In this document: piece after piece, positions 51,273 to 61,373 of the stretch
How the letters are laid out: every line of letters begins with the position of its first letter
Numbering within the stretch: the stretch's first letter is position 1
DNA from: Aquincola tertiaricarbonis
GTDB lineage: Bacteria; Pseudomonadota; Gammaproteobacteria; Burkholderiales; Burkholderiaceae_C
DNA length: 64,000 nt
Reading direction: 5' to 3'
Assembly: GCF_000969605.1 (NCBI RefSeq)
Contig: NZ_JZUE01000007.1
Span: 62,001 to 126,000 of the forward strand
The notes under the pieces: model-generated
Told to the model about the DNA's origin: nothing
The model's input: the letters and a program-made list of their open reading frames with translations, nothing else
Database searches by the model: none
Made by a program: the position numbers and the translations under genes

Positions 51273-51749
51273 CTACAGGAAGCGTTCGAGCAGTCGGCGG
51301 GAGCCGCGGTCGAGCGCCCGCCAGTCGGGCACGGTGAAGAAGATGCCGTGGCTGCTGGCGATCATCAGCATGCCGTCATTGCCCACGCGGCGGATGTCCT
51401 CCTCGCCCTTCAGCTCGAAGCGCGTGGGGCCGCGGTCGGTGTCCACCTCCCACAGGCTGGGCGTGGAAAAGGTGGACACGGTGCGGATGCGCTGGATCTT
51501 CGGCGAGAAGTCGCGCTGCGCCAGCTCCTCGGCGATCAGTGCGCGCACCGGCGCCGGCAGCGCGGCCAGGCGGTCGATCCACACCGCCTCGCGGCCCTCC
51601 GCATTCACCAACGAGATGCCTTCGTCGGGCGCGGCCAGCGGGAACGCCCGCACCGGCAGCACGCCCTCGTGGCGCATGCCGTCGGCAGTGGTCAGCACCA
51701 GCCGGCCGAAGCCGTCGCGCTGCAACTGGAAGTCTTCAAGCGTGGCCAT
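51273..51749 (-). CDS. DUF1854 protein (cyanophycin-locus associated)
   Basis: A 158-residue cytoplasmic DUF1854 protein, of unknown activity. Markers are EDFQLQRDGFGRLVL, the conserved RVVSTFSTPSLWEVDTDRG-like block and FELKGEEDIRRV. Two bases separate it from the ABC transporter gene upstream, so they are one transcript. DUF1854 next to this ABC transporter and cphA genes is a recurring arrangement from memory; in it the protein is called cyanophycin metabolism-associated. Confidence 0.8.
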   Translation of the reverse strand: MATLEDFQLQRDGFGRLVLTTADGMRHEGVLPVRAFPLAAPDEGISLVNAEGREAVWIDRLAALPAPVRALIAEELAQRDFSPKIQRIRTVSTFSTPSLWEVDTDRGPTRFELKGEEDIRRVGNDGMLMIASSHGIFFTVPDWRALDRGSRRLLERFL

Positions 51750-51751
51750 GC

Positions 51752-54007
51752 TCAGGCTCCTGCAGGATGGGCTGCATGGGCGGGCTCGCGCTCGGGCGGC
51801 ACGTCGTCGGCGTCCACCCGCCGCGCCTGCGCCTCATACAGCCGCCAGTAGTGGCCTTGCTTGTCGATCAGCTCATCATGCGGGCCGACTTCCACCACGC
51901 GGCCGCGGTCCATCACCACCAGCCGGTCGGCCTTGCGCAGCGTGGACAGCCGGTGCGCGATGGCAATGGTGGTGCGGCCCTGCACCAGGTTGTCCAGCGC
52001 CTTCTGGATCTCGCCTTCGGTCTCGGTGTCCACCGACGAGGTGGCTTCATCCAGGATGAGGATGCGCGGGTCGATCAGCAGCGCGCGGGCGATGGAGATC
52101 CGCTGGCGCTCGCCGCCGGACAGGCCCTGGCCGCGCTCGCCCACCAGAGAGTCGTAGCCGTGCGGCAGCCGCAGGATGAACTCGTGCGCATGGGCCGCGC
52201 GGGCGGCGGCGATGATCTCCTCGCGGCTGGCCTCGGGCCGGCCGTAGGCGATGTTCTCGGCGATGGTGCCGAAGAACAGGAACGGCTCCTGCAGCACCAG
52301 GCCGATGTGGCGCCGGTAGTCGGCCACGCCGAAGCGGCGGATGTCGGTGCCGTCCACCTCGATGGCGCCGTCGGTCACGTCGTAGAAGCGGCAGATCAGG
52401 TTCACCAGCGTGCTCTTGCCCGAGCCGCTGTGGCCCACCAGGCCGATCATCTCGCCGGGGCGGATGTCCAGGTCCAGCCCGCGGATGACCGAGCGGCTGC
52501 CATAGCGGAAGCCCAGCCCGCGCATGCGGATGCCGCCGCGCGGGTTCGTGATCGGCACCGGCTGCTCGGGGTCGGGCACGTTGGACACATGGTCCAGGAT
52601 GTCGAAGATGCGCTTGGCACCGGCGGCGGCCTTCTGCGTGACGGAGACGATGCGGCTCATCGAATCCAGCCGCGTGTAGAAGCGGCCGATGTACGCGATG
52701 AAGGCCGTGAGCACGCCCACGGTGATCTTGCCGTCGGACACCAGCCAGATGCCAAAGGCCCACACCACCAGCAGGCCGACGTCGGTGAGCAGCGAGACGG
52801 TGGGCGAGAACAGCGACCAGGTCTTGTTGAGCCGGTCGTTGACCGCGAGGTTCAGGCGGTTGGCGGCCTTGAAGCGATCGGCCTCGCGGCGCTCCTGCGC
52901 GAAGGCCTTGACCACGCGGATGCCGGGGATGGTGTCGGCCAGCACGTTGGTGACGTCGCCCCACACGCGGTCGATCTTCTCGAAGCCGGTGCGCAGCCGG
53001 TCGCGCACCAGGTGGATCATCCAGGCGATGAAAGGCAGCGGTATCAGCGTGACCAGCGCCAGCCACGGATTGATCGAGAACAGGATGGCCGAGGTCATGC
53101 CGATCATCAGCACGTCGGTGGCAAAGTCCAGCGCATGCAACGACAGGAAAACGCTGATGCGATCGGTTTCCGAGCCGATGCGCGCGATCAGGTCGCCCGT
53201 GCGCTTGGCGCTGAAATAGTCGAGCGACAGGCGCAGCAGGTGCTCGAAGGCCGCGGTGCGCAGGTCGGCCGCGATGCGTTCGGACACCAGCGCCAACAGC
53301 CAGGTGCGTGCCCAGCCCAGCCCCCAGGCCAGCACCGCCGAGCCCAGCAGCCCGGCCAGCAGCGAGAACACCAGCCAGGAATCGATCTGCTGTCCGTTCT
53401 GGAACGGGATCAGCACATCGTCCATCAGCGGGATGGTGAGGTAGGGCGGCACCAGCGTGGCCGCGGTGCTGGCCAGCGTGAGCAGGAAGCCGCCGATCAA
53501 TTGCTTGCGGTAAGGCCGCGCGAAGCGGCCCAGCCGCAGCAGCACCCAGGTGGAAGGCACCTCCACCGCCTCGCGGCTGAAATCTTCGGGCTCGAAGGCA
53601 TCGGCGTCCGCGTCGTCGGGCTCGCCACGGTGCAGCCGCGCCAGTTGCCGCTCCACCTGCGCCATCCACTGCAGGGCCTGGACGTTCACCGCCAGCGTGA
53701 AGCGCCATTGGGCCACCCGGCGCTGGTGGTCGTGCAGCTCGAGGGTGCCCACGCCGGCATGGTCGGTATGCCGCAGGTGCAGGTCGGCTGCCAGCGGCCA
53801 CTCGGCCCAGCCGTCCGCGCTGCCCGCCATCAGCCGACGGTCGGTGAGCACCAGCAGGCCGGGCGCGAAGCGCTGGCGGGCATCGAGGTCAACCTCCAGC
53901 GTGGCCAGCACGTTCTCGTCGCTCGCCAGCAGCGAAGGCAGGGCGGTGATCAGGGAAGACGCGCCAGGCGCGCCGACGGTGAGTGATTGTTCTTGGAGGG
54001 GTTGCAT
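51752..54007 (-). CDS. Cyanophycin-associated ABC transporter (fused permease-ATPase)
   Basis: A 751-residue half-transporter. After an unusual soluble N-terminal region of about 150 residues (with a PH-like DRRLMAGSADGWAEWPL stretch) there are six membrane helices (about 165-455) and an ATPase with Walker A GLVGHSGSGKST, signature LSGGERQR and Walker B ILILDEATSSVD. Type IV exporter fold, likely a homodimer. It diverges from the first cyanophycin synthetase (150 bp) and is in line with DUF1854. The substrate is not known; an exporter of cyanophycin-related peptides or a membrane factor is possible. Confidence 0.82.
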   Translation of the reverse strand: MQPLQEQSLTVGAPGASSLITALPSLLASDENVLATLEVDLDARQRFAPGLLVLTDRRLMAGSADGWAEWPLAADLHLRHTDHAGVGTLELHDHQRRVAQWRFTLAVNVQALQWMAQVERQLARLHRGEPDDADADAFEPEDFSREAVEVPSTWVLLRLGRFARPYRKQLIGGFLLTLASTAATLVPPYLTIPLMDDVLIPFQNGQQIDSWLVFSLLAGLLGSAVLAWGLGWARTWLLALVSERIAADLRTAAFEHLLRLSLDYFSAKRTGDLIARIGSETDRISVFLSLHALDFATDVLMIGMTSAILFSINPWLALVTLIPLPFIAWMIHLVRDRLRTGFEKIDRVWGDVTNVLADTIPGIRVVKAFAQERREADRFKAANRLNLAVNDRLNKTWSLFSPTVSLLTDVGLLVVWAFGIWLVSDGKITVGVLTAFIAYIGRFYTRLDSMSRIVSVTQKAAAGAKRIFDILDHVSNVPDPEQPVPITNPRGGIRMRGLGFRYGSRSVIRGLDLDIRPGEMIGLVGHSGSGKSTLVNLICRFYDVTDGAIEVDGTDIRRFGVADYRRHIGLVLQEPFLFFGTIAENIAYGRPEASREEIIAAARAAHAHEFILRLPHGYDSLVGERGQGLSGGERQRISIARALLIDPRILILDEATSSVDTETEGEIQKALDNLVQGRTTIAIAHRLSTLRKADRLVVMDRGRVVEVGPHDELIDKQGHYWRLYEAQARRVDADDVPPEREPAHAAHPAGA

Positions 54008-54157
54008 CGGCAGGCCGGCCCAGGCGATGGCCAGGCAGACGGATTCTGAACCATGCCCGCAACGCACCAACGCGGCCGCCGGCCGACAAGGCGGCCGTCG
54101 CACGACGCACAATCCCCTCAGACCACCCGGCCTCGCGGCACAACCCCCTGCGGACCC

Positions 54158-56362
54158 ATGAGCAAATTCCAAGACATCCGGCTGCTGCGCATCAACTACC
54201 TGCGGGGGCCCAGCATCTGGACCTACCGCCCCGTGCTCGAAACCTGGCTCGATCTCGGCGAGCTGGAGAACCATCCCTCCAACCTGCTGCCCGGCTTCAA
54301 CGACCGGCTGTCGGCGCTGCTGCCGGCGCTGGTCGAGCACCACTGCGGCGTGGGCGAGCGCGGCGGCTTCCTGCAGCGGCTGCACGAAGGCACCTGGATG
54401 GGCCATGTGCTGGAGCATGTGGTGATCGAGCTGCTGAACCTGGCCGGCATGGCCACTGGCTTCGGCCAGACGCGCAGCACCTCGCAGTCGGGCGTCTACC
54501 GCATGGTGTTCCGCGCACGGGACGAGCATGTCTCGCGCACCGCGCTGGCCTGCGGTCATCGGCTGCTGATGGCCGCGATCAACGACGAGCCGTTCGACGT
54601 GCCTGCCGCGGTGGCGCAGATCCGCGACCAGCTGGACGACACCTACTTCGGCCCCAGCACCGCGTCCATCGTGTCGGCCGCCACCGACCGCCGCATCCCG
54701 CACATCCGCCTGAACGGCGGCAACCTGGTGCAGCTGGGCTACGGCATGCGCCAGCGTCGCATCTGGACGGCCGAGACCGACAAGACCGGCGCCATTGCCG
54801 AGAACATCGCCGGCGACAAGGACCTGACCAAGCGCCTGATCGCCGGCTGCGGCGTGCCGGTGCCCGAAGGTAGCACCGCCGACAGCCCGGCAGAGGCCTG
54901 GGAAGCGGCCGAGGACATCGGCCTGCCGGTGGTCGTGAAGCCGCTGGACGGCAACCACGGCCGCGGCGTGAGCCTGGACCTGAACACCCGCGAGGAAGTC
55001 GAGGCCGCCTGGACGGTGGCCGATGCCGAAGGCAGCGGCGTGATCGTCGAGCGCTACATCCGCGGCGACGAGCACCGGCTGCTGGTCGTCGGCAACGAGG
55101 TGGTGGCCGCAGCCCGCGGCGAGAGCCTGTGGATCACCGCGGACGGCGAGGCCACCGTGCGCGCGCTGGTGGACAGCCAACTCAACACCGACCCCCGCCG
55201 CGGCGAGGCGGAGGAGTTCCCGCTGGAGTTCATCAACCTGGACAAGGACGCCGTCACCCGGCTGCTGCTGCAGCGCCAGGGGCTGGCGCCCGAGTCGGTG
55301 CCCGAGGCCGGCCGCCGCGTGCTGATCCAGCGCAACGGCAACGTGGCCATCGACTGCACCGACGACGTGCATCCCGAGGTGGCGCGCGTGGCCGCGCTGG
55401 CCGCACGGGTGGTGGGCCTGGACATCGCCGGCATCGACCTGGTGGCCGAGGACATCCGCCGCCCGCTGCATGTGCAGGGTGGCGCGATCGTCGAGGTGAA
55501 CGCCGGCCCCGGCCTGCTGATGCACCTGAAGCCCGCGGTGGGCATGCCGCGGCCGGTGGGCCGCGCGGTGGTCGACCACCTGTTCCGCGAGGGCGAGGAC
55601 GGCCGCATTCCCATCGTCGGCGTGGCCGGCACCCGCAACACCGCGCTGGTGGCGCGGCTGGTGGCCTGGCTGCTGCAGCTCAGCGGCCGGCACGTGGGCC
55701 TGGCCTGTCGCGAGGGCCTGTTCCTCGAGCGGCGTCGGGTGGAAGGCGGCGACGCCACCCGCTGGGACAGCGCCCAGCGCCTGCTGATGAGCCGCAGCGT
55801 GGACACCGCGGTGATCGAGAACGGCCCGGTCGAGATCCTGAACGACGGCCTGGCCTACGACCGCTGCGACGTGGGCATCGTCACCGACCTCGACCTGCCC
55901 GAGGCGCTGCGCGAGCCGCTGGCGCAGCACGACTTCTTCGAGGCCGAGCAGCTGGTGAAGGTGCTGCGCACGCAGGTGGACGTGGTGCTGTCGCACGGCA
56001 CCGCGGTGCTGAACGCCGCCGACGAGCGCGTGGCCGCGCTGGCCGAGCTGTGTGATGGCGACACCATCCTCTACGGCAAGGACCCGCAGCTCATCGCCAT
56101 CGACAAGCACCGCGGCACCGGCGCCCGTGGCGGCCGCGCGGTGTTCGTGCGCGACGGCCGCGTGGTGCTGGCCACCGGCAGCGCCGAGACGCGGCTGGCG
56201 CCGGTGCAGCGCATGGCGCTGGGTCGCGGCGCCGCGCACGACCCGATCGACACCGAAGCCCTGCTGGCGGCCATCGCCGCGGCCTGGGCCCAGGATGTTC
56301 CGCCCGACCTGATGATCGCCGGCATCGAGACCTTCGCCGCCGACGTGCCCACCGCCGCCTGA
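54158..56362 (+). CDS. Cyanophycin synthetase paralogue, degenerate ligase domain (CphA2-like)
   Basis: A 734-residue CphA-family protein with all three domains. N-domain (1-160) has H83-V-L-E86-H87-VVI-E91, matching the cryptic peptidase motif recalled from cyanobacterial CphA1. ATP-grasp (about 160-480): VVVKPLDGNHGRGV, VNAGPGLLMHL. M-domain: where CphA1 has GTNGKTT, this has GTRNTAL (491-497), so Mur-type ATP binding is lost. It should not add arginine by the usual route. Start ATG 54158; followed by cphA 17 bp downstream on the same strand. Confidence 0.88.
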   Translation: MSKFQDIRLLRINYLRGPSIWTYRPVLETWLDLGELENHPSNLLPGFNDRLSALLPALVEHHCGVGERGGFLQRLHEGTWMGHVLEHVVIELLNLAGMATGFGQTRSTSQSGVYRMVFRARDEHVSRTALACGHRLLMAAINDEPFDVPAAVAQIRDQLDDTYFGPSTASIVSAATDRRIPHIRLNGGNLVQLGYGMRQRRIWTAETDKTGAIAENIAGDKDLTKRLIAGCGVPVPEGSTADSPAEAWEAAEDIGLPVVVKPLDGNHGRGVSLDLNTREEVEAAWTVADAEGSGVIVERYIRGDEHRLLVVGNEVVAAARGESLWITADGEATVRALVDSQLNTDPRRGEAEEFPLEFINLDKDAVTRLLLQRQGLAPESVPEAGRRVLIQRNGNVAIDCTDDVHPEVARVAALAARVVGLDIAGIDLVAEDIRRPLHVQGGAIVEVNAGPGLLMHLKPAVGMPRPVGRAVVDHLFREGEDGRIPIVGVAGTRNTALVARLVAWLLQLSGRHVGLACREGLFLERRRVEGGDATRWDSAQRLLMSRSVDTAVIENGPVEILNDGLAYDRCDVGIVTDLDLPEALREPLAQHDFFEAEQLVKVLRTQVDVVLSHGTAVLNAADERVAALAELCDGDTILYGKDPQLIAIDKHRGTGARGGRAVFVRDGRVVLATGSAETRLAPVQRMALGRGAAHDPIDTEALLAAIAAAWAQDVPPDLMIAGIETFAADVPTAA

Positions 56363-56379
56363 CCTTCCGCACCAAGCCC

Positions 56380-58941
56380 ATGCAAGTCTCCCGCATTCGC
56401 GCGCTGCGCGGCCCCAACCTCTGGACCCGCAACACGGCCATCGAGGCGATCGTCAAATGCTCGGATAAGGCGCTGACGCTCTCGCAGCGCGACGACTTCG
56501 AGGACCGCGTGCGCCAGCGCTTCCCGGCCATCGGCGCGCTGCGGCCCAGCACCGGCGCGGCGTCGCTGGCCCATGTGCTGGAAGCCGCCGCGCTGGCGCT
56601 GCAGAAGGAGGCCGGCTGCCCCGTCACCTTCAGCCGCACCTCGGCCACGGTGGACGAAGGCGTCTACCAGGTGGTGGTGGAGTACAGCGAGGAAGCCGTC
56701 GGCCGCATGGCGCTGGAAGAGGCGCACCTGCTGGTCACCGCCGCGCTGGAAGGCACCGACTTCGACATCGATGCCGCCATCCACCGCCTGCGTGAGAAGG
56801 ACGAGGACGTGCGCCTGGGCCCCAGCACCGGCTCCATCGTCAACGCCGGCCTGGCGCGTGGCATTCCGTACCGCCGGCTGACCGAAGGCAGCCTGGTGCA
56901 GTTCGGCTGGGGCGCCAAGCAGCGCCGCATCTGGGCCGCGGAGGTGGATTCCACCAGCGCCGTGTCCGAGGCCATCGCCCAGGACAAGGACCTGACCAAG
57001 AAGCTCCTGCGCGCGGCCGGCGTGCCGGTGCCCATCGGCCGCCCGGTGACCAGCGCCGACGACGCCTGGGCCGTGGCCCAGGAAGTGGGATTGCCGGTGG
57101 TGGTGAAGCCGCAGGACGGCAACCAGGGCAAGGGCGTGACGGTGAACATCGTCAGCCGCGAGCACCTGGAGGTGGCCTACCGCGCCGCCGAGGAATACGG
57201 CACCGTGATGGTCGAGAAGTACCTGCCCGGCTGCGACTACCGCATGCTGGTGGTGGGCGACCAGCTGGTGGCCGCCGCCCGGCGCGACCCGCCACACGTC
57301 ATCGGCGACGGCGAGCACACCGTGCGCGAGCTGGTGGACCGCGTGAACTCCGACCCGCGCCGGGGCGAAGGCCATGCCACCTCGCTCACCAAGATCCGCT
57401 TCGACGAGATCGCGGTGGCGCGGCTGGCCGAGCAGGGTTTGACGGAGCAGTCGGTGCCGGCCATCGGCCAGCGCGTGATCCTGCGCAACAACGCCAACCT
57501 GTCCACCGGCGGCACCGCCACCGACGTGACCGACGACGTGCACCCCGAGGTGGCCGCGCGCGCGGTGGCTGCGGCCCGCATGATCGGCCTGGACATCTGT
57601 GGCGTGGACGTGGTGTGCGAAGGCGTGCTGGAGCCGCTGGAGGACCAGCACGGCGGCGTGGTGGAAGTGAATGCCGCACCCGGCCTGCGCATGCACCTGT
57701 CGCCCTCGTACGGCAAGGGCCGGCCGGTGGGCGAGGCCATCATCAACCACCTGTTCCCGCCCGGTGAAGACGGCCGCATCCCGGTGGTGGCCGTCACCGG
57801 CACCAACGGCAAGACCACCACCGCGCGCCTGATCGGCCACCTGCTGGCCAGCGATGGCTACCGCGTGGGCATGACCAACACCGACGGCGTGTACGTGGAA
57901 GGCCGGCAGATCGACAGCGGCGACTGCAGCGGCCCGAAGAGCGCGCGCAACGTGCTGGCCCATCCCGACGTGGACGCCGCCGTGTTCGAGACCGCCCGCG
58001 GCGGCGTGCTGCGCGAGGGCCTGGGCTTCGACCGCTGCCAGGTGGCGGTGGTCACCAACATCGGCGCCGGCGACCACCTGGGGCTGAACTACATCACCAC
58101 GGTGGAAGACCTGGCGGTGCTCAAGCGCGTGATCGTGCAGAACGTGGCCCCCACCGGTTATGCGGTGCTCAACGCCGCCGACCCCATCGTGGCGCAGATG
58201 GCCGCCACCTCGCCGGGCAAGGTGATCTTCTTCGCGGCCGACCGCCACCATCCGGTGATGGCCACGCACCGCGCGCAGGGCGGCCGCACCGTGTACGTGG
58301 ACGACGGCTCGGTGGTGGTGGCCGAAGGCAGCTGGCGCGAAAGCATCTCGCTGCGCGACGTGCCGTTGACGCGCGCCGGCACCATCGGCTTCCAGGTGGA
58401 GAACGTGCTGGCGTCGGTGGCCGCGGCCTGGGGCCTGGGCCTGGACCTGGCGGCCATCCGCAGCGGCCTGGCCAGCTTCGTCAACGATGCGCACAACGCG
58501 CCCGGCCGCTTCAACGTGATGGACTTCCGCGGCGCCACCGTGATCGCCGACTACGGCCACAACCCCGACGCGATGCGCGCGCTGGTGCAGGCGGTGGACG
58601 CCATGCCGGCCAAGCGCCGCAGCGTGGTGATCAGCGGCGCCGGCGACCGCCGCGACCAGGACATCCGCGACCAGACGGTGATCCTGGGCGACGCCTTCGA
58701 CGAGGTCATCCTGTACCAGGACGCGGCCCAGCGTGGCCGCGCCGACGGCGAGGTGATGGCGCTGCTGCGCGAAGGCCTGGCGCAGGCCCGCCGCACGCGG
58801 CACGTGGAAGAGATCCGCGGCGAGTTCATCGCCATCGACCATGCGCTGGACCGACTGCAGCCCGGCGACCTGTGCCTGGTGCTGGTGGACCAGGTGGAGG
58901 AAGCGCTGGCCCACCTGGACCAGCGCATCAAGGCCGGCTGA
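56380..58941 (+). CDS. cphA: Cyanophycin synthetase (CphA1 type)
   Basis: An 853-residue enzyme that builds the aspartate-arginine polymer cyanophycin: its ATP-grasp domain adds aspartate and its Mur-ligase-like domain adds arginine. VVVKPQDGNQGKGV (ATP-grasp), and the M-domain P-loop GTNGKTT (474-480) and the DYGHNPDAMRALV block are intact. In the N-domain the peptidase motif is changed: H65-V-L-E68-A69-AAL-A73, two ligand positions replaced by alanine. ATG at 56380, 17 bp after the first paralogue, so one operon. Confidence 0.95.
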   Translation: MQVSRIRALRGPNLWTRNTAIEAIVKCSDKALTLSQRDDFEDRVRQRFPAIGALRPSTGAASLAHVLEAAALALQKEAGCPVTFSRTSATVDEGVYQVVVEYSEEAVGRMALEEAHLLVTAALEGTDFDIDAAIHRLREKDEDVRLGPSTGSIVNAGLARGIPYRRLTEGSLVQFGWGAKQRRIWAAEVDSTSAVSEAIAQDKDLTKKLLRAAGVPVPIGRPVTSADDAWAVAQEVGLPVVVKPQDGNQGKGVTVNIVSREHLEVAYRAAEEYGTVMVEKYLPGCDYRMLVVGDQLVAAARRDPPHVIGDGEHTVRELVDRVNSDPRRGEGHATSLTKIRFDEIAVARLAEQGLTEQSVPAIGQRVILRNNANLSTGGTATDVTDDVHPEVAARAVAAARMIGLDICGVDVVCEGVLEPLEDQHGGVVEVNAAPGLRMHLSPSYGKGRPVGEAIINHLFPPGEDGRIPVVAVTGTNGKTTTARLIGHLLASDGYRVGMTNTDGVYVEGRQIDSGDCSGPKSARNVLAHPDVDAAVFETARGGVLREGLGFDRCQVAVVTNIGAGDHLGLNYITTVEDLAVLKRVIVQNVAPTGYAVLNAADPIVAQMAATSPGKVIFFAADRHHPVMATHRAQGGRTVYVDDGSVVVAEGSWRESISLRDVPLTRAGTIGFQVENVLASVAAAWGLGLDLAAIRSGLASFVNDAHNAPGRFNVMDFRGATVIADYGHNPDAMRALVQAVDAMPAKRRSVVISGAGDRRDQDIRDQTVILGDAFDEVILYQDAAQRGRADGEVMALLREGLAQARRTRHVEEIRGEFIAIDHALDRLQPGDLCLVLVDQVEEALAHLDQRIKAG

Positions 58942-58943
58942 GC

Positions 58944-61373
58944 CTAGAAGCTGTAGCGGGCGCGGGCGTACCAGTAAGCCCCGTTGAAGCCGATGGGCGA
59001 CAGCACGTCGTACGGCAGGTTGCCGAAGTAGGCGATGTCGTCGCTGGACCGGTCGGGGTAGCGGTTGGTGATGTTCAGGCCACCCACCGCCAGCGCCCAT
59101 TGCCGCGTGGGGCGCCATTCCAGCTCGGCATCCAGCTGCCAGGTGGCGCCATAGGTCTGCGTCGGCGTGAAGCCGTCGCCGAAGTCGAACACCCGGGTGG
59201 TCTTGCCATGCCGGGTGGCGCGCAGCAGGCCGCCCCAGGCCGCGCCCGTCCACTGTGCGCTGAACACCTGCCGCTGCCGCGGTGCGGCGGTGGTGAGCGT
59301 GTTGGCCTCTTCCAGGCCCACCGGCAGGCCGCTGACCCCCAGGCCGGCCAAGGCGGCCGGCAGCGGCTCGGTGCGGCGGATGCGGGTGTGCGAGGCGGAG
59401 GCCGCGGCGCTCAGCTGCAGGTCACCCTGCGCGGCCTTGCCCTGCCACTGCGCGACCAGGTCGGCGCCGCGGGTGCGGGTGTCCACCGCATTGGTGAAGA
59501 AGTTGACGCCCTCCACGCCGGGCAGCAGCGCGCTCAGCGCGGGGCTGCTGAAGCGTTCGGACAGCGTGATGCGGTCCTTCACGTCGATGCGGTACACGTC
59601 CAGCGTGACCGACATGCCGCGCAGCGGCTGCGCGGTCAGGCCCAGCCCGACTTGGCGTGAACGCTCTGGCTTCAGCGGCCGAGCGCCCAGCGCCCGTGCC
59701 GCCTCGCTGTCCACCGGCAGCGTGCGCACCTGGGACAGCACGCCGCCATCGCCATAGTTGGCCACGCTGTAGCTGAAGGCGGACTGCGCCAGCGACGGCG
59801 CGCGGAAGCTGCTGGACAGGGCGCCGCGCAGCGCCCATTGCGGTGCCGGCTGCCAGCGTGCGGACAGCTTGCCGGTGCCGGCGCCGCCGGCGTCGCTGTA
59901 ATGGTCGTATCGGGTGGCCGCCTGGGCGAACCAGCGCTCGCCCAGATCGGCCGAGAGGTCGGCATAGACACCGGCCACGCGGCGCGAGCGGTCCGCCTCG
60001 TCCGCCGGCGCCAGGCCCGGGCCGGCCTGCGCGCCGGGCGGCGCCTGCAGCGGACCGGCGATCCAGGACGCTTCGTCGCCGGCCTGGCTGCGGAAGGCCT
60101 CGCGGCGCAGGTCGGCGCCCACCGCCAGCGTGGCAGGGCGCGCCAGCCCGATGGCCAGCGGCCGGCTCAGGTCCAGGTTTGCGCCCAGCTGGCTGAACGC
60201 GTGGCGGCCCAAATCGAAGCGCGTGGGACTGGCGTCGCCCAGCGAGGCATTGAGTGAACGTCGCACGCCGAAGCGGAAGTCGTTGCGGCCATAGGCCAGG
60301 CTGGTGTCCAGCTCCCAGCCGACCAGCGGGCCGCGCACGCCGGCCACCAGCGAGAGGTCGTCGCTGCGGCCGATGGTCTCCGGCCGGTAGCCCTGCGGAT
60401 ATCGCCGCCCCGGGTTGGCTTCGCTGTCGGGATAGCGGAAGTAGGCAGCGCCGACGCTGTCACGCCGGCTCCAGGTGCCGAAGGCATAGGCCTGGTGGCC
60501 ACCATCCAGCGCCAGCGCGCCGTTCAGCCACAGCGCCTTTTTGTCGGTCTCCGGATCGCCGGCCACGTAGTTGCGGCGGCCCTGCGTGGCCAGGTTCGCT
60601 TCGGTGTGCGCTTCGAAGAACGGCAGCCCGTCCAGGCCGGCGCGGTTGGTGCCATTGCGGTGGCCCAGCTCTACGCCCGCGCGCAAGAAGCCTTCCGCCA
60701 GGCGCCAGCCGTGCTCCAGCTGCAGCTCGGTGGCCTGGCCGTCGGTGAGGCGCTGGCCGGTGGGCGCAAAGCGGGTGCGGTAGGCGCCGCCGGTGGCCAC
60801 CGCCTCGCCGCCTTGCGCCGCATCGTCCAGGATGACGTTGATGACACCGGCGACGGCATCGGAGCCGTATTGCGCGCCCGCGCCGTCGCGCAACACTTCC
60901 ACGCGCTTGATCGCGCCCAGCGGCAAGGCGCTGAAGTCCACCGGGTTGGTGCCCTTGCCGGTCTTGGACTCCAGGTTCACCACTGCGCTGGTGTGGCGGC
61001 GCTTGCCGTTGACCAGCACCAGCACCTGGTCCGGGCTCATGCCGCGCAGCTGCGCCGCGCGCACATGGTCGGCGGCGCCGGAGTTGGACTGGCGCGGGAA
61101 ATTGAACGAAGGCAGCAGCACCTGCAGCGCGGCCGCGAGCGAGCCCTCCGGCCCGGCGGCACGGCGCAGGTCATCGGCATGCAGCACGTCGATGGGCGAG
61201 GTGGCGGTGAGCACGGTGCGATCGCGCGTGCGGGTGCCGGTCACGATGACGGCGTCGGGCCCGGTGGCTTCGGTCGTGGTGGTCTGGGCCCCCGCGGGGG
61301 CGGCCGCGGCGGCCACGGCCAGGCTTAGCAGCAAGCGGTGGAACGGGGGTTGGGTGGGCGGCAGCGTCGTCAT
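58944..61373 (-). CDS. TonB-dependent outer-membrane receptor
   Basis: An 809-residue receptor: signal peptide (about 1-29, LLLSLAVAAAAAPAGAQ), plug domain (TGTRTRDRTVLTATSPIDVL, then VLVLVNGKRRHTSAVV and VEVLRDGAGAQYGSDAVAGVINVI) and a 22-strand barrel ending in F (YARARYSF). It converges on cphA, stop codons two bases apart. No siderophore or TonB-ExbBD gene adjoins it. The substrate is unknown; nearness to cyanophycin genes does not by itself mean function. Confidence 0.92.
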   Translation of the reverse strand: MTTLPPTQPPFHRLLLSLAVAAAAAPAGAQTTTTEATGPDAVIVTGTRTRDRTVLTATSPIDVLHADDLRRAAGPEGSLAAALQVLLPSFNFPRQSNSGAADHVRAAQLRGMSPDQVLVLVNGKRRHTSAVVNLESKTGKGTNPVDFSALPLGAIKRVEVLRDGAGAQYGSDAVAGVINVILDDAAQGGEAVATGGAYRTRFAPTGQRLTDGQATELQLEHGWRLAEGFLRAGVELGHRNGTNRAGLDGLPFFEAHTEANLATQGRRNYVAGDPETDKKALWLNGALALDGGHQAYAFGTWSRRDSVGAAYFRYPDSEANPGRRYPQGYRPETIGRSDDLSLVAGVRGPLVGWELDTSLAYGRNDFRFGVRRSLNASLGDASPTRFDLGRHAFSQLGANLDLSRPLAIGLARPATLAVGADLRREAFRSQAGDEASWIAGPLQAPPGAQAGPGLAPADEADRSRRVAGVYADLSADLGERWFAQAATRYDHYSDAGGAGTGKLSARWQPAPQWALRGALSSSFRAPSLAQSAFSYSVANYGDGGVLSQVRTLPVDSEAARALGARPLKPERSRQVGLGLTAQPLRGMSVTLDVYRIDVKDRITLSERFSSPALSALLPGVEGVNFFTNAVDTRTRGADLVAQWQGKAAQGDLQLSAAASASHTRIRRTEPLPAALAGLGVSGLPVGLEEANTLTTAAPRQRQVFSAQWTGAAWGGLLRATRHGKTTRVFDFGDGFTPTQTYGATWQLDAELEWRPTRQWALAVGGLNITNRYPDRSSDDIAYFGNLPYDVLSPIGFNGAYWYARARYSF

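Follow-up and report, generated by a model that had tools for sequence, protein, structure and literature searches.

The window analysed here, a stretch of 64,000 nucleotides from the Aquincola tertiaricarbonis contig NZ_JZUE01000007.1, contains two adjacent genes for homologues of cyanophycin synthetase, termed cphA' and cphA, which lie on the same strand with 17 bases between them (Table 1). The TIGR02068 equivalog of NCBIfam (cut-off 850 bits) is passed by CphA at 992.7 bits but not by CphA', which scores 704.9, and the broader PRK14016 model (cut-off 877) is passed by both proteins, CphA' reaching 1018.9 bits. Within the organism's own genome a profile search for cyanophycin synthetase gave two strong matches (992.2 and 703.8 bits) and a third of only 60.2 bits. 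Divergent from the pair run genes for an ABC exporter, whose start codon was picked by hand, and for a DUF1854 protein; this neighbourhood is already known to curators, since NCBIfam names both families 'cyanophycin metabolism-associated'. A search of positions 53950-59100 of the window for sigma-70-type promoters returned no match.

Table 1. Features of the cyanophycin synthetase locus (positions in the window)
Feature	Position	Strand	Remarks
DUF1854 gene	51273..51749	-	NCBIfam NF052234 'cyanophycin metabolism-associated DUF1854 family protein'
MsbA-like ABC exporter gene, divergent	51752..54007	-	NCBIfam NF052233 'cyanophycin metabolism-associated ABC transporter'
Divergent intergenic region, exporter / cphA'	54008..54157	.	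150 bases
cphA'	54158..56362	+	734 aa; cyanophycin synthetase homologue: N-domain cutting site intact, G Asp site lost, M degenerate, M lid absent
CphA' N-domain endo-cyanophycinase site	54338..54430	+	H61, C63, H83, E86, H87, E91 = SuCphA1 H57, C59, H79, E82, H83, E87
CphA' shortened Asp-binding loop (SuCphA1 389-399, NLSTGG)	55328..55345	+	QRNGNV, aa 391-396
CphA' lost Mur-type P-loop	55628..55648	+	GTRNTAL, aa 491-497
cphA	56380..58941	+	853 aa; synthetase: Asp and Arg ligase residues intact, N-domain site lost
CphA N-domain site remnant	56572..56598	+	H65, E68 kept; A69, A73 in place of SuCphA1 H83, E87; Cys loop absent
CphA M-domain P-loop, intact	57799..57819	+	GTNGKTT, aa 474-480

The N domain of SuCphA1 is a zinc endo-cyanophycinase that makes primers for the synthetase, and its site consists of the motif Cx19HxxEH (C59, H79, E82 and H83), found in 83% of CphA1s and aided by H57 and E87; the cleavage is known to be slow and to release mostly tetramers, not dipeptides (PMC9262961). 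Alignment with SuCphA1 (HMMER, 7lg5) finds the equivalents of all six residues in CphA', those from H83 to E91 being borne on a helix predicted at residues 81-95. In CphA, H65 and E68 are retained, two alanines take the place of H83 and E87, and the loop bearing the C59 equivalent is absent. A first-pass annotation of this DNA had reported H83, E86, H87 and E91 beside the altered P-loop GTRNTAL (491-497) in the first protein, and GTNGKTT (474-480) beside A69 and A73 in the second, and every one of these was found where it had been placed. The alignment, a check set beforehand, also brought the four N-domain residues onto SuCphA1 H79, E82, H83 and E87 and the P-loop segments of both proteins onto that of the M domain. 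The motif from which the annotation had worked, GH-x2-EH-x3-E, differs from the published one, and C63 and H61, which it had missed, are likewise present in the first protein. By residue content CphA' would thus be an inverzincin-like N-domain endo-cyanophycinase, with Cx19HxxEH and the equivalents of H57 and E87 complete, and CphA lacks the motif.

The distribution of these residues was followed through 601 homologous ORFs collected from 326 loci. Pairs were accepted if both genes lay on the same strand with CphA' upstream, a gap of -200 to 1500, and matches starting no later than residue 20 in CphA' and residue 60 in CphA; the resulting 243 adjacent pairs were reduced to 207 unique ones (134 from whole genomes, 73 from named contigs) by dropping repeated CphA' N domains, and 158 of these, with a CphA of at least 820 aa, form a second set. 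The six N-site residues are complete in 207 of the 207 unique CphA' and in none of the 207 CphA, and the C-x19 spacing is likewise kept in all 207 CphA'. Survivors among the 207 CphA amount to H83 in 6, E87 in 14 and the cysteine in 0. H79 and E82 are both retained in 141 of the 207 CphA, although the cysteine is always and H83 nearly always gone.

The two proteins are closely bound to one another, as CphA follows all 268 CphA' ORFs that have enough downstream sequence and is absent for 0. Conversely, 260 CphA ORFs of the pair clade have CphA' upstream, 2 lie too near a contig end, and one, at locus L137, is without it; for a further 3 that were flagged, the examined stretch contains no more than the tail of a lid-bearing CphA'. 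Among 30 single-chain CphA1s with no CphA' seen alongside, a set that includes L137, which runs to a contig end, the N residues are kept in 29 (C-x21 in 19, C-x19 in 10), the one exception being L115 (G585). A strict search for Cx19HxxEH had suggested that many single-chain CphA1s are without the N site, a result undone by column alignment and a looser pattern, the spacing being two residues longer in 19 of the 30. Single-chain enzymes can also lose the site, as all four motif residues are absent from TmCphA1 (PMC9262961) and HxxEH was not seen in the A. baylyi CphA1 chain where the N-site helix aligns. The motif is therefore a non-obligatory feature of CphA1, primer-dependent TmCphA1 being without it. 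Three genomes (G115, G327 and G356; L086-L088, L091-L093) contain, besides the pair, two further CphA genes each, on opposite strands and by a cyanophycinase; the N site is lost in all six of these extra CphAs.

In the G domain the losses fall on the other chain. TeCphA1 holds the substrate Asp via R323, N394 and R458, next to S396 on the loop 389-399; the residues for ATP and the acyl phosphate are K220, K261, R309, D431, E450 and H267 (PMC9427784). In the window CphA', R323 is replaced by G and R458 by L, and the shortened loop no longer includes S396, so that most of the Asp-binding residues of CphA1 are missing. None of R323, S396 and R458 occurs in any of 158 CphA' (158/158), and the NLSTGG-type loop is missing in 207/207; readings by column were used besides the pattern for R458, which is unreadable in 8/207. 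The N394 column, at the edge of an alignment gap, is still Asn in 144 of the 158. With R323, S396 and R458 lost, CphA' should not add Asp. The annotation's proposal that the two proteins divide the work of one enzyme stands as far as it puts the cutter on the first and both builders on the second, a distribution universal in the pairs examined, and falls where it has the first protein ligating with Asp. Two short queries of the PDB sequences, aimed at the Asp-site residues of CphA2, continued to return CphA1 chains in the five alignments listed.

The ATP part of the G site of CphA' is mostly kept, K220, K261, H267, R309, D431 and E450 all being retained in 200/207, so that another ATP-dependent reaction is possible; judged from these residues, ligation with another acceptor may be considered. 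Because of this retention, and because G is the best conserved domain of CphA', this domain probably does more than serve as a scaffold. The seven CphA' with altered ATP-site residues still keep the N site; four have H267R only, three have more than one change. At L245:3736-5757 (minus strand) the ATP-grasp domain is wrecked, the N site intact and the adjoining CphA normal. In CphA, the full set of 9 G and 5 M residues is present in 157/158, the remaining protein having one masked residue, and the window CphA has the CphA1 G and M catalytic residues as well as a score above the TIGR02068 cut-off. H267, which stands outside these 14 residues, is Gln in 156/158 CphA, including that of the window, and His in 153/158 CphA'; H267A damages the cyanobacterial enzyme (PMC9427784).

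The M domain of CphA' has decayed further. The window protein has lost the M P-loop, the D585-H586 pair and the M lid (the Mur_ligase_C lobe), and thus the whole Mur-ligase site of CphA1; both Pfam Mur domains are found in CphA and neither in CphA'. The first-pass annotation had noted the P-loop, whose loss is real but secondary, since 9 of the 207 CphA' keep a complete M domain; the absence of D585-H586, the lid lobe, most of the Asp loop and the equivalents of R323 and R458 goes beyond it. Two more CphA' have the P-loop, the DH pair and a partial lid. Irreversible loss would imply about 15-17 separate losses of the lid, and Fitch parsimony counts 6 changes, on a tree in which the CphA' clade has a support of 0.743 and part-lids were scored as present. 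Restoration of the CphA' lid by gene conversion from the neighbouring CphA was considered; of the 11 CphA' with a lid or part of one, 6 were checked and none showed it.

A G-domain tree of 73 chosen pairs and the window gives support of 1.0 to the CphA' clade, 0.933 to CphA and 0.978 to both together with L137, and IQ-TREE returned the same grouping (100, 94 and 99) for 16 random pairs of the 73 plus the window. L137, in which all three sites are intact, is placed with CphA' in both trees (support 0.89), although its nearest rows by path length are CphA; its contig ends inside the gene, so that a second gene may follow. The trees put one old duplication beneath the pair, to judge from these sequences, after which decay would have been complementary, CphA losing the cutter and CphA' the Asp site, with the M domain of CphA' then decaying repeatedly. 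The loss of the N site from CphA and that of the Asp site from CphA' can be one event each. As the pairs stem from one duplication, the counts given above show constraint rather than repeated origin, and 207 pairs are not 207 independent events. Constraint is visible in the N domain of CphA', which is well conserved: across 3375 genome pairs (lid-less pairs with a CphA G identity of up to 80%) the N domain is better conserved than the M core in 96.4% for CphA' and in 2.1% for CphA, and the N site has stayed unchanged in every CphA' against the repeated loss of the M lid.

The genes around the pair show a distribution of their own. Among 52 genomes hand-picked from earlier matches, with a strict E limit of 1e-250 for the ABC gene, the ABC and DUF1854 genes occur in 22/22 with the pair and in G887, the genome of L137, and in 0/29 others, while the cyanophycinase TIGR02069, absent from G887, occurs in 28/29 others and in 1/22 with the pair. 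An even draw of 300 Burkholderiales genomes, in which DUF1854 was scored and the ABC gene was not, gave CphA matches in 113; of these, 9 are single-chain and the other 104 are counted as pair-type by subtraction, adjacency not having been checked in each, and include contig-end cases (G345 with only CphA, at a contig start; G089 with CphA' and the start of CphA; G232 and G230 with fragments). DUF1854 is present in 102/104 pair-type genomes, the two without it being G181 and G345, and in 0/9 single-chain ones, and no genome of the 300 has it without CphA. Cyanophycinase scoring at least 200 bits is present in 9/9 single-chain and 4/104 pair-type genomes (8/104 over the curated cut-off); in three of those four it stands beside a second CphA locus, and the fourth is the window's own genome. 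There an S51 cyanophycinase lies on a contig other than that of cphA (L327:1354-2247, C22), with a signal-like N terminus as judged by eye.

The position of DUF1854, compared in 24 genomes, is near the pair in 21 (17 divergent) and far away in 3. DUF1854, divergent in every case, is present in 68 of 80 named contigs and the ABC gene in 74; 9 of the 12 without DUF1854 have less than 2.4 kb upstream of cphA', and at L252, L253 and L256 neither gene occurs within the 3.4-4.0 kb upstream. Three small genomes (G302, G090 and G060; 1.3-1.8 Mb) retain the pair and DUF1854, which suggests more than an optional store. Elsewhere, a second Mur-ligase-like ORF directly adjoins a single-chain CphA1 (L075, L108-L113, L143), and on a Roseateles plasmid (L328:5819-7624) cphA follows a cyanophycinase gene and precedes one for a Mur ligase family protein.

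With SuCphA1 and TeCphA1 (all sites active, N+G+M+) the pair shares the same three-domain fold, and the residues of each site can be identified in it; there, however, one chain carries the three sites, which are here divided over two adjacent genes, neither chain having all of them. CphA resembles primer-dependent TmCphA1 and A. baylyi CphA1 as a synthetase without an N-domain site, although the CphA of the pair clade has a CphA' upstream. The closest parallel is an engineered one: the SuCphA1 heterodimer N-G+M+/N+G-M- matches the activity of heterodimers that carry all sites on one chain when primer is given, and falls somewhat short of it when primer is left out; the isolated SuCphA1 N domain, supplied in trans, lets primer-dependent TmCphA1 work without primer (PMC9262961). 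That heterodimer has the same distribution of sites over two chains as the natural pair, but was made in the laboratory by point mutations, whereas the pair here arose naturally and with deletions. No description of a complementary split of cyanophycin synthetase was found in the literature searched, which mostly lay outside subscription papers.

The name cphA' is that used for Ralstonia eutropha H16, whose two homologues are adjacent as well. R. eutropha H16 resembles the present case in having two CphA homologues in one genome; according to reviews they gave no cyanophycin, and complementary sites are not described in the excerpts of these reviews (PMC8560796, PMC11362209).

The explanation that best accounts for these observations, with a probability of about 0.62 on the sequence comparisons made, is that an old duplication was followed by the partition of a single cyanophycin synthetase between the two chains of the pair, with a division of labour in which, by residue content, the cutting site is on CphA' and both building sites are on CphA. 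CphA would elongate the (beta-Asp-Arg) chain, its G domain adding Asp and its M domain Arg, and CphA' would be a slow zinc endo-cyanophycinase working in trans and probably part of a mixed oligomer held by its retained G and M cores; its cuts would give new ends for CphA to extend, and cutting may also set product length. Several points fit this division of labour poorly: the persistence of the ATP-site residues and of Asn in the N394 column of most CphA', of H79 and E82 in CphA, where a dead site would not explain them, and of Gln at H267 in nearly all CphA, together with the lack of cyanophycin from the R. eutropha H16 homologues as given in the excerpts of PMC8560796 and PMC11362209.

With the neighbouring exporter conserved and cyanophycinase usually lacking, cutting may serve ends other than priming, and the two rival purposes that follow, export and degradation, are compatible with the split itself. 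Tentatively, CphA might build and CphA' cut to length chains that the MsbA-like ABC transporter and DUF1854 move out of the cytoplasm. The co-occurrence of DUF1854 and the ABC gene with the pair in both genome samples is in keeping with such export, as are transporter motifs that are intact by eye, the rarity of cyanophycinase, the polymer reported absent in R. eutropha (PMC8560796, PMC11362209) and the signal-like stretch with which the cyanophycinase of the window's genome begins. The transporter is nevertheless tied to the pair by neighbourhood and co-occurrence only, DUF1854 lies far from the pair in some genomes and both genes are lacking from the upstream stretches of L252, L253 and L256, and the predicted DUF1854 structure (pLDDT 85.8, pTM 0.56) matches nothing in the PDB at an E value of 0.001 or below. 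No mention of cyanophycin export was found in the literature searched, again mostly outside subscription papers and with a pattern, 'extracellular cyanophycin', that also fits 'extracellular cyanophycinase'. The fuller form of the idea, in which a beta-Asp-Arg polymer or oligomer, with the split synthetase as the core of its synthesis, would be secreted and not stored, being polymerised by CphA, trimmed by CphA' and exported by the MsbA-type transporter and DUF1854, seems doubtful on these comparisons. Cutting by CphA' could instead serve degradation, the protein being the missing beta-proteobacterial cyanophycinase that mobilises stored polymer. This would suit the scarcity of S51 cyanophycinase in pair-type genomes and the report by Sharon and Schmeing that 2.8% of 903 beta-proteobacterial cphA1 genomes have cyanophycinase, a finding which they called 'unanticipated' and which led to the suggestion of unknown isozymes (PMC10206079). 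It is unlikely, however, in view of the slow, tetramer-yielding activity known for the N domain (PMC9262961), of the S51 enzyme in the window's own genome, and of a gene pair with the synthetase that would poorly suit separate control of breakdown.

Two further readings concern the chemistry of CphA' rather than the purpose of cutting. CphA2, a cyanobacterial enzyme, joins beta-Asp-Arg dipeptides (PMC9262961, PMC10206079), and CphA', its G domain freed of the Asp loop, might likewise join dipeptides or segments; its ATP-site residues are mostly kept and, as in CphA2, the M P-loop and lid are absent. The N-site motif, however, is absent from CphA2 (PMC9262961) and kept by every CphA', more than one ATP-site residue has changed in three CphA', and CphA' is closer to CphA1 both in sequence (E 1.8e-137 versus 3e-52 for CphA2) and in predicted structure (Z 43.6, rmsd 4.3 over 706 residues for TeCphA1; Z 26.8, rmsd 6.8 over 572 residues for CphA2), so that a ligase of the CphA2 type appears quite improbable. 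That CphA' is a decaying pseudo-paralogue without catalytic role might be read from its degenerate M domain and the loss of the lid in most members, but the invariant N site, the well conserved N domain and the unbroken association with a downstream CphA make this very hard to credit.

The split over two chains, if it holds, is a natural counterpart, across much of one bacterial order, of a division so far made in the laboratory. It may be that the R. eutropha homologues made no polymer because a primer-dependent builder was tested without its cutter; the null reports, as far as the excerpts of PMC8560796 and PMC11362209 give them, would agree with a system that is split, primer-dependent or exporting. 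The puzzle of beta-proteobacteria that have cphA without cyanophycinase would then have two testable answers: the missing cutter may be CphA', or the product may be exported from the cell, and a secreted polymer, if true, would explain why cphA occurs there without cyanophycinase.
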